A stretch of DNA of 64,000 nucleotides from a virus. A program made the position numbers and the translations under genes. Under the pieces are notes generated by a model. It was not told where the DNA came from. It made no database searches and saw only the letters and a list, made by a program, of their open reading frames with translations. The stretch lies in the IMG/VR virus record IMGVR_UViG_3300024255_001563, positions 62,001-126,000 of that record. One strand, given 5' to 3'. Positions 26,859 through 28,959 of the stretch are shown piece by piece. The first letter of the stretch is position 1, and each line of letters opens with the position of its first letter.

Positions 26859-27320
26859 TTATGCGTCTTCTGTGAAATCGTCGTCATCGGTTCCAACTAA
26901 TGTGTTGTCGTCGCCAGCTTCTTCAACTTGTGCTGCACCGTCTGCTACAGATGTACTAAAGTTCCATGCTACACTTACACCATCATAAGCATTACTACCT
27001 GTTGCACTTGGTGCTGACAATGTAGCTTTACGTCCAGAAATTTTACTTACTGTGTATGTTTCTGCATCGTCCATTTTGAATGAAATAGCCATTTCGCCTT
27101 CTGCTAATGCTGCTGGTAGTTTACCAGTTGTTAGCGTACAAGTAAATAAGCCTGGTGTTTCAATTTCTTCACATACAAATTTCTTTGATGCTTTTTGCTT
27201 TACAATGTAACCTTCTTTAACTGCTGTGCCGTTATGAAAATTTACTTTAATTTCGTTGCCGCCTGCTGTAGGTCCTACGCCTGCTACACCGAATAATCGT
27301 TTGTTTAGTGGTCTTCCCAT
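26859..27320 (-). CDS. MGRPLNKR-type virion protein, 153 aa
   Basis: Starts MGRPLNKRLFG, a start that I recall from conserved structural proteins of marine T4-like phages. The first half has Gly and Val-rich strands (NEIKVNFHNGTAV, GYIVKQKASKKFVCEE), and the last ~20 residues are acidic (GDDNTLVGTDDDDF). Strong GGAG site before ATG at 27320. It is the first gene after a late promoter and a ~90-base structured leader, and it lies downstream of gp23, which suggests a head or neck decoration role. That role is inferred. Confidence 0.65.
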   Translation of the reverse strand: MGRPLNKRLFGVAGVGPTAGGNEIKVNFHNGTAVKEGYIVKQKASKKFVCEEIETPGLFTCTLTTGKLPAALAEGEMAISFKMDDAETYTVSKISGRKATLSAPSATGSNAYDGVSVAWNFSTSVADGAAQVEEAGDDNTLVGTDDDDFTEDA

Positions 27321-27416
27321 TTTTTTTCTCCTATAAAAAGTAGTCCTATGCCCGTTCTATGAGCTACGCTGCGGGTACAGCATAAGTCCGCCTTGCGGCA
27401 CACTATCTGACATATG
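27321..27416 (-). promoter_or_regulatory. Structured 5' leader of the 153-aa virion gene
   Basis: About 90 bases from the late promoter to the GGAG site. Minus-strand hairpins include TGCC-GCAA-GGCG with a GNRA tetraloop and GCTG-TACCCG-CAGC. The leader is clearly more GC-rich than the neighbouring genes. It may regulate or stabilise the mRNA; no ligand family was recognised. Confidence 0.45.
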
Positions 27417-27424
27417 TATTTATC
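27417..27424 (-). promoter_or_regulatory. Late promoter box GATAAATA
   Basis: GATAAATA on the minus strand, starting six bases beyond the U-tract of the terminator that ends the candidate RNA. This placement separates the RNA unit from the late unit of the 153-aa gene. Confidence 0.7.
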
Positions 27425-27429
27425 AAATA

Positions 27430-27678
27430 AGAAAAAAGCCCGACACAGTTAAGTATCGAGCTTTTAATAATAAGGGTGATAGGTTGGACTTTGAGAATAC
27501 CAACAACCTCCTAGTAGCTCTCGCTAAATTCGGAGGAGCCTAGCATCGGATAGTTACTTCCAAAAACATATCTTTGTATCTCTACAATCATATGCTGCCA
27601 CTACAGCTACTAGCCAAGTTGTGTCACTACGCAACACCGTTCCTTGCACTATCTAACTTAGACCGTCGCCTAACTTAT
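27430..27678 (-). ncRNA. Candidate free-standing structured RNA, about 250 nt
   Basis: No convincing reading frame. It is bounded by a sigma70-type promoter (27685-27712) and an intrinsic terminator (27431-27465). Minus-strand hairpins in 5'-3' order: GCTG-TAGTGG-CAGC; CATAT-GA-TTGTA-GAGA-TACAA-AG-ATATG, with tandem G-A pairs and a GNRA loop; CCTCC enclosing TAGC-GAGA-GCTA closed by GGAGG; and AGGTTG-(17)-CAACCT. GNRA loops appear on the minus strand only, which supports that strand. An 8-base complementarity (27606-27613 with 27511-27518) suggests a pseudoknot or alternative fold. No tRNA T-loop or tmRNA features are seen. It is not assigned to a known family. Confidence 0.6.
27431..27465 (-). 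terminator. Intrinsic terminator of the candidate RNA
   Basis: Twelve-bp stem AAAGCTCGATAC with GTGTCGGGCTTT (two G-U pairs), a 6-base loop, and a run of U after the stem on the minus strand. Confidence 0.8.
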
Positions 27679-27684
27679 GTAACT

Positions 27685-27712
27685 AATATAACATCATTAC
27701 AAACAATGTCAA
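27685..27712 (-). promoter_or_regulatory. Sigma70-type promoter for the candidate RNA
   Basis: Minus strand TTGACA (27712-27707), a 16-base spacer and TATATT (27690-27685), matching the bacterial consensus at 11 of 12 positions. The expected start is near 27678. It lies downstream of the gp23 terminator and faces no protein gene for ~360 bases. Confidence 0.7.
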
Positions 27713-27734
27713 CCACTTTTTTTAAAAAAGTCAT

Positions 27735-27763
27735 AAAAAAAGGCCCCGTAGGGCCTTTTTTCG
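27735..27763 (-). terminator. Terminator after gp23
   Basis: A-tract, GGCCC, loop CGTA, GGGCC, T-tract. It is symmetrical and so could work on both strands, but only gp23 (minus strand, stop at 27781) points into it. Confidence 0.9.
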
Positions 27764-27780
27764 TTATTATAAAAATAATA

Positions 27781-28959
27781 TTAGCTAAAGCTTACATTAC
27801 CATTAGTAATTGCAACGTTAGCTAAGTAATCAGCTGCGTTACCAAGCGATGATGCTGTGTTGTTTAACTCAACATATCCGTAACGTGTCATGAATGACAC
27901 TGTTGGTTCGAATGATGTTGGGTCAAGCACAACGCCTGAGCTCATTAGTGGGATGTATGGGCAATAGAATGCTGCTGCATCTGATTCACTTGAACCTTTG
28001 TAGCCAACTAGTACTGCTGTACCGTCACCTGCATATGTGTCTACATAGACACGCATTGCGTTATTTAATGTACCAACCATTTTAGTGTTAGTTGGTGCTT
28101 CAAATGTACCCTCTGTTGTACGTGCAAATGCGCTTGTAGTAGCACTTTGTAGAATTGTTAGCGCAAATGGGCTAACGACTGCAAAGTTACCTGCGCCTCT
28201 GCGTGTACGCTGAGCGATTAGGTTTGATGCACGGTTGATTTGTACTGCAAGTGCTGCATGCTCGTCACCAACAAATGTTGCTGTACCAGACACGCCCGCT
28301 TGGTCGTATGTTTCAACTGCTGCACCACTTAGTGTGCGTAAAGAAGCTAATACTTCTTGATCGATTTCAGCAGTAATCTCTTGTGCTAGAGCAGCCATAA
28401 TTTCTGCTTCAACATCAATACCATGTTGGGACTGAGCATCTTGAGCTGATTCAAACGTCCAACGAGCACTCAACTTACGAGTTTTCGCTTCAACAGTTTG
28501 CTTCAAGATCTGAATGCTTAGTTGATTACCAGCTGCACCTTCAAGAGCTGCTGTACTGTTTGCTGCACCAGGGTTTGCTTCATCACCTGAATATGATGTT
28601 GCAATTTTGAATGGGCTTAGAGCCTCTTCACCTGCTGTTGCACCGTTGGCGCCCGCATTCACAGTGTCGCTATAACGAACACGTAGAGTGTGGATTTGAC
28701 CAACTGGACCAGTCATAGGCTGAACACCTACGATTTCATTAGCAATGACTGTTGGCATTACACGTCTGATCACTGGTAGGATCACACGATTTAGAGTTGC
28801 TACGTTACCGGCAGAAGTAGCGCCTGCAGTGGCTGTCTCTGACAAATACTTACGTGTATTTTCCAAAGTTGCGGCCATTACAGATTTCTTGTTGCCATTT
28901 AGGCCTTCAAGAAGTGCTGTCTTCGTATCCTGCCAGCGACTTTCTAGTAGTTCTGACAT
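27781..28959 (-). CDS. gp23: Major capsid protein
   Basis: 392 aa, recognised as T4 gp23 family from LESRWQDTKTALLEG, NTRKYLSETAT, LPVIRRVMPTVIANEIVGVQPM and QIHTLRVRYSDT, and from the C-terminal YVELNNTASSLGNAADYLANV. It forms the hexameric capsid lattice, and the N-terminus is normally cut by the gp21 protease. It is noticeably shorter than T4 gp23 (521 aa). It directly follows gp22 with AAGGAG before the ATG, keeps the T4 order 21-22-23, and is followed by a strong terminator. Confidence 0.95.
   Translation of the reverse strand: MSELLESRWQDTKTALLEGLNGNKKSVMAATLENTRKYLSETATAGATSAGNVATLNRVILPVIRRVMPTVIANEIVGVQPMTGPVGQIHTLRVRYSDTVNAGANGATAGEEALSPFKIATSYSGDEANPGAANSTAALEGAAGNQLSIQILKQTVEAKTRKLSARWTFESAQDAQSQHGIDVEAEIMAALAQEITAEIDQEVLASLRTLSGAAVETYDQAGVSGTATFVGDEHAALAVQINRASNLIAQRTRRGAGNFAVVSPFALTILQSATTSAFARTTEGTFEAPTNTKMVGTLNNAMRVYVDTYAGDGTAVLVGYKGSSESDAAAFYCPYIPLMSSGVVLDPTSFEPTVSFMTRYGYVELNNTASSLGNAADYLANVAITNGNVSFS

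Follow-up and report, generated by a model that had tools for sequence, protein, structure and literature searches.

Between the major capsid gene (gp23) of a T4-like phage and the next gene on the minus strand lies an interval that carries a promoter and a terminator of its own, which raises the question of whether it encodes a free-standing RNA or the leader of the gene that follows, and to which RNA family it belongs. The window, a 64,000-nt stretch of DNA that corresponds to positions 62001-126000 of a 200,843-base IMG/VR virus record, places this RNA locus among T4-type head genes encoding capsid protein, protease and portal. The nearest relatives of the capsid protein were found in jumbo T4-like phages, e.g., Phosso and PA5oct. 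No psbA was found in this genome, so that a cyanobacterial host is not indicated, and DNA similarity searches against named phages returned nothing useful. On the minus strand, no open reading frame (ORF) of at least 60 aa was found at 27321-27780, and the elements follow one another in the order capsid terminator, promoter, RNA, terminator, late box, freshwater-2 leader and gene 27320-26859 (Table 1). The promoter, gene-free stretch, terminator and late box described in the earlier note were all found in place. With the capsid-gene terminator just upstream and its own terminator downstream, the RNA unit is insulated on both sides.

Table 1 Features of the capsid-gene interval and of related loci. 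Positions refer to the window unless a relative is named.
Feature	Position	Strand	Description
Major capsid gene (gp23)	27781-28959		adjoins the RNA gene on its upstream side
Capsid-gene terminator	27735..27762	-	bidirectional-looking; hairpin and U-tract; same place in relatives
sigma70-type promoter	27685..27712	-	TTGACA-16-TATATT; extended -10 (TGT); A-rich upstream tract
manA-type RNA body	27473..27673	-	full-length match to RF01745 positions 1-192
5' hairpin P1	27658..27673	-	UUAGGC-GACG-GUCUAA; Rfam match, covariation
Long-range closing helix	27478..27653	-	GAUAG 27653-27649 with CUAUC 27482-27478
GNRA-tetraloop hairpin (GAGA)	27574..27587	-	preceded by G-A-rich internal loop; compensatory stem changes
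Loop-loop (kissing) contact	27550..27604	-	GUAGU 27604-27600 with ACUAU 27554-27550
Intrinsic terminator with U-tract	27428..27465	-	13-pair hairpin 27465-27434
Late-promoter-like box of next gene	27417..27424	-	GATAAATA; beyond the RNA terminator
freshwater-2 RNA (RF02980), 5' leader of next gene	27318..27402	-	66.9 bits; cut-off 49.9
Next gene	26859-27320	-	behind late box and freshwater-2 leader
RF01739 aptamers in relatives	L048:4357-4404; L012:4344-4391; L088:3972-4021; L098:6233-6280		

Promoter, family and fold of the RNA

The TTGACA (27712-27707) and TATATT (27690-27685) hexamers of the promoter are separated by a 16-nt spacer that includes the extended -10 TG; the promoter scores 11/12, and the transcription start is predicted near 27678. 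A promoter scoring at least 10/12 was present in 37 of the 39 distinct homologues at this locus, compared with 4.7% of dinucleotide shuffles, and one scoring at least 9/12 in all 39, located 8-18 nt before the aligned RNA. Most core promoter positions had an information content of 1.8-2.0 bits, compared with 0.2-0.9 bits for the majority of the spacer, and the TG of the extended -10 was conserved among the locus homologues. RNA and promoter are fixed in the 39 distinct homologues, in agreement with the conservation that the earlier note had expected at this locus.

The earlier note had recognized no family. A permissive Rfam scan matched 27673-27473 to manA (RF01745) with 42.5 bits; since the cut-off is 55.2 bits, a default scan reports nothing here. 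When the whole 200-kb genome was searched with this single family, it was the only match (E = 1e-10), and it covers the full-length consensus structure, model positions 1-192. Among 50 related virus records, 25 had a manA match with E < 1e-9, and five matches exceeded the cut-off, with a maximum of 79.9 bits. Orthologues at the same locus reached 79.9 (L098), 56.4 (L107), 55.7 (L129) and 55.5 bits (L088), and a single nucleotide profile aligns them with the window copy (E 1e-26 to 1e-47). Built from the window and six relatives as seeds, this profile detected the RNA in 71 loci fetched through two neighbouring proteins, 39 of them distinct. By this comparison the window RNA is a divergent manA homologue below the formal Rfam cut-off; we use this term, and not that of a formal Rfam hit, because its score lies under the cut-off and its higher-scoring orthologues nevertheless join it in one profile. 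Weaker Rfam matches of the region to STnc130, NsiR1 and SraG were rejected as terminator or A/T-tract look-alikes. No 6S family appeared among the Rfam matches up to E 10, and cmscan gave no match to GOLLD or ROOL in the region, the RNA being ~250 nt long as compared with several hundred nt.

The folding energy of the RNA was -77.8 kcal/mol, vs -64.5 ± 4.8 kcal/mol for shuffled sequences (z = -2.8, 3/200). For covariation, we used the structure that the Rfam match gives for the window copy and counted its pairs over 33 aligned relatives. Standard pairs occupied 81.4% of cells, compared with 63.8% after shuffling and 36-43% when the structure was slid, these percentages being lowered in variable helices, which align imperfectly between distant members. 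The covariation score of 0.463 (shuffled, 0.169 ± 0.010) was reached by none of 500 shuffles, and 42 of the 52 pairs had changes on both sides. The compensatory base changes on which the earlier note had made its proposal depend were therefore found in the 33 relatives.

In the resulting architecture, a 5' hairpin is followed by a long-range helix that closes a core of several helices, and there are also a GNRA hairpin and a loop-loop contact; what had been described as four hairpins are rather parts of this one larger fold with its closing helix. That helix was paired in 91% of cells, with compensatory changes, and reads GGGAG/CUCCC in cyanophage members. Of the GAGA loops described before, the one at 27582-27579 is a family-wide GNRA tetraloop: GAGA, GAAA, GUGA and GCGA occur among relatives, always of the GNRA type. 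The kissing loops exchange GUAGU/ACUAU for GUGGU/ACCAU and for UAGUG/UACUA, in which the central pair is swapped. A permutation test on distinct loop pairs gave p = 0.017; restricted to distinct pairs of the window type, it gave 0.10. The contact is broken or weak in L107, L048, L105 and L119. It may correspond to the tentative pseudoknot with which manA was originally described. Covariation of the manA tail with the 5' arm spoke against reading that tail as an anti-Shine-Dalgarno look-alike, and the idea was abandoned.

Downstream contexts and independence from the next gene

Rfam and Weinberg 2010 (PMC2864571) file manA as cis-regulatory and a possible riboswitch, and the term "cis-regulatory" has been repeated in later phage papers (PMC9964418, PMC12197685). 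This label is an annotated hypothesis of the family and stands outside its covariance model. At the window locus, the RNA does not occupy the 5' UTR of a regulated gene, since a terminator, a late box and another leader intervene, and tRNA-flanked members exist. A 5' promoter suits a leader and a gene alike; what tips the balance towards a stand-alone RNA is the 3' side.

Four of the named T4-like cyanophages that were scanned have manA: P-SSM2 (181.6 bits), between regA and purL; P-RSM4 (171.5 bits), immediately behind gp23 like the window copy; S-SSM7 (123.6 bits), directly abutting tRNA-Gly; and S-CREM1 (96.6 bits), where it fills the interval from tRNA-Leu to tRNA-Asn with zero spare bases. 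No manA was found in five named jumbo phages that are near in capsid protein (Phosso, 2.275.O, PA5oct, GAP32 and 121Q). We collected 89 distinct cyanophage-type members, most of them by a 16-base pattern. For 87 of them the upstream sequence was long enough to judge, and in 84 of these a promoter scoring at least 10/12 stood at the 5' end (shuffles, 1.7%); two of the three exceptions lie directly behind a tRNA. In a further 120 members gathered with two window-type patterns, a set that overlaps in part with the 39 homologues, the same threshold was reached by 114; one of these further members (L446) lies within a nine-tRNA cluster.

Under a strict rule, what comes first downstream of the cyanophage-type members is a tRNA in 7, a terminator in 22 and an ORF in 56, and the genes that follow are mutually unrelated. 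Some window-type members elsewhere in the genome also run into an ORF, e.g., the L469 group before gp32. These mixed contexts are what would be expected of a dual element, in which a promoter with a structured 5' part yields a free RNA if a terminator or tRNA follows but serves as a protective or regulatory mRNA leader if an ORF comes directly after it. Pairing with a Shine-Dalgarno sequence would be possible for the CCUCCC at the end of cyanophage members but not for the CUAUC end of the window type. However, the genes behind manA are numerous and show no relationship to one another (gp32, talC, peroxiredoxin, rubrerythrin and hypothetical genes), unlike those of a dedicated regulator, their distances vary from about 6 to 100 nt, and some of the ORF calls are short and doubtful. 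Some ORF-preceding cyanophage-type members could act as leaders; as an account of the RNA, the dual element is the best placed of the alternatives and still improbable.

Several observations were made around these members. Many cyanophage-type manA copies (L235, L228, L233, L199, L283 and others) are followed directly on the 3' side by the hairpin GACCTAAGATGCAACTC..GAGTNGGGCAGATGGTC and a T-tract; this hairpin is conserved and has no Rfam match. Neither has a structured-looking, partly repeated block after manA at L430:10127-10330, seen also in L345 and L377; behind this block come a small gene and an hsp20-like gene. manA also occurs in bacterial assemblies (L315, a Nonlabens xiamenensis contig, and L314, L316, L320 and L336), which are probably phage contigs or contamination.

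At the capsid locus, a terminator was found 4-17 nt past the RNA in 36 of the 39 distinct homologues. Terminator detection is rule-based and varies in sensitivity (69/118 in the further-member set, many without a canonical hairpin). The position of the terminator is kept, and 25 different sequences occurred among 27 compared. In L343, L425 and L356, from the same capsid locus, a tRNA-Gly 5 nt downstream of the RNA stands where the terminator would be, and a terminator and then the late box come after this tRNA; L105, one of the three homologues without a terminator, is the same contig as L343. An exchangeable terminator, or a tRNA at the 3' end, favours a stand-alone RNA, which 5' processing of the adjoining tRNA would release.

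The earlier note had argued that a terminator of its own would be superfluous for a leader. This argument is unsound, because attenuators and transcriptional riboswitches share the same order of promoter, RNA, terminator and gene; its conclusion survives on other grounds, namely terminator turnover without an antiterminator, tRNA substitution, and the late promoter and leader of the next gene, which are kept without the RNA. In a terminating riboswitch or attenuator, the manA domain would sense a metabolite and gate read-through into the next gene. The layout is the classical one, the family label of Rfam and Weinberg 2010 (PMC2864571) points the same way, and a structural gene starting MGRP comes next in most relatives. 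Nevertheless, the cognate complementarity between RNA and terminator is lacking: arm pairing gave -10.36 kcal/mol for cognate and -10.34 kcal/mol for non-cognate combinations (p = 0.46), and the search thus found no expression platform in which an aptamer-formed antiterminator competes with the terminator. The terminator lies outside the fold and its sequence varies freely, a tRNA can take its place, and the next gene is served by a late box and a second structured leader of its own, which persist where the RNA is absent. We therefore regard the riboswitch as unlikely, and slightly more so than the dual element. Motifs that had hinted at an antiterminator (GACTC/GAGTC and GACGC/GCGTC in L012 and L107) failed the cognate vs non-cognate comparison.

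The late box is located mostly 36-77 nt past the RNA end in the homologues, ahead of the leader and of a gene usually starting MGRP. Late box and leader are kept in the RNA-less relatives L030, L020 and L080, and in L061, L074 and L049, where a small ORF occupies the place of the RNA; large records without any manA (for example, of 169, 176 and 186 kb) also exist. As regards INDEPENDENCE from the next gene, the late box and leader persist without the RNA, which marks the RNA as an accessory cassette. From these comparisons, the RNA is not a needed part of the next gene's control region. A non-functional remnant or merely a long late-gene leader would fit the absence or replacement of the RNA in many relatives but is very improbable, since strong compensatory change and promoter hexamers conserved over the spacer speak for maintenance, and a terminator and a separate late box intervene before the gene.

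Other elements were seen in the same region. In the window, freshwater-2 between the late box and the start codon constitutes a structured leader on the late transcript. Unrelated small ORFs fill the RNA slot after the capsid gene in L061, L074, L049, L017, L022 and L042, and in L042, where a protein gene substitutes for the RNA, the RNA tail and terminator are still there; the gap after the capsid gene looks like an exchange site. Glutamine riboswitch aptamers (RF01739) directly follow a late-promoter-like box in the capsid-tail region of four relatives (Table 1).

A probable stand-alone RNA gene and its known counterparts

The window copy is likely to be a stand-alone, promoter-driven structured RNA gene of a divergent manA branch in a T4-like phage, and the earlier note's free-standing structured RNA with a sigma70-type promoter and terminator is supported in this respect. 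Comparison of the homologues established its family membership, structure, promoter, boundary by terminator or tRNA, and accessory distribution. Host-type RNA polymerase would start near 27678 and stop at the hairpin near 27430, yielding an RNA of ~250 nt, of which the first ~205 nt would fold into the manA structure, with the 5' hairpin, the long-range helix closing a multi-branched core, the GNRA hairpin and the loop-loop contact. This RNA would not be the leader of the following late gene. Early expression is plausible from the promoter type and, judged by its architecture, the RNA probably acts in trans, most likely as a stable, folded molecule while the phage takes over the cell, and probably through binding of a protein or ribonucleoprotein. 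Early transcription, stability and trans action are our inferences.

The case for a stand-alone RNA is clear in two groups, the window-type branch at the capsid locus and the cyanophage members flanked by tRNAs. That the whole manA family is misfiled, and is a movable stand-alone RNA gene of T4-like phages and not a riboswitch class, with its own 5' promoter, a 3' end made by terminator or tRNA processing, and trans action on host or phage machinery, is a proposal to which we give even weight for and against; as a counterpoint, roughly half or more of the cyanophage-type members precede an ORF (gp32, talC and hypothetical proteins) with no rule-detected terminator. Ever since 2010 manA has been listed as an orphan riboswitch candidate; should it prove to be an independent RNA gene, looking for its ligand and for a gene under its control would have been the wrong approach. 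The window-type branch, missed by standard Rfam annotation, offers the clearest version of the architecture and extends the family past cyanophage-like genomes, and the isolated phages with manA (P-SSM2, P-RSM4, S-SSM7 and S-CREM1) make experiments possible.

The window RNA may be likened to the stable RNAs C and D from the tRNA cluster of T4, which are small RNAs of unknown function encoded together with tRNAs. GOLLD and ROOL, phage RNAs whose function is likewise unknown and which often lie close to tRNA islands (PMC12286853), share with the window RNA a stand-alone structured nature; the compact fold and the tRNA neighbourhood of manA members recall them, but they are much larger, structurally unrelated and without homology to the window RNA. 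freshwater-2 (RF02980) is a structured RNA of the same intergenic region but differs in being a true leader, which runs from behind the late box into the ribosome-binding site, and in its unrelated structure. Compared with manA RF01745, the window copy has the closing helix GAUAG/CUAUC instead of GGGAG/CUCCC, the core motif GUGCAAGGAA instead of GUGACUGAAUAA, and its own terminator, and it does not lie in the 5' UTR of a metabolic gene. It shares with manA all model positions, the same covarying helices, the GNRA hairpin and a loop contact of the GUGGU/ACCA kind, as well as the occurrence in marine T4-like phages, where the P-RSM4 copy lies downstream of gp23 just as in the window.
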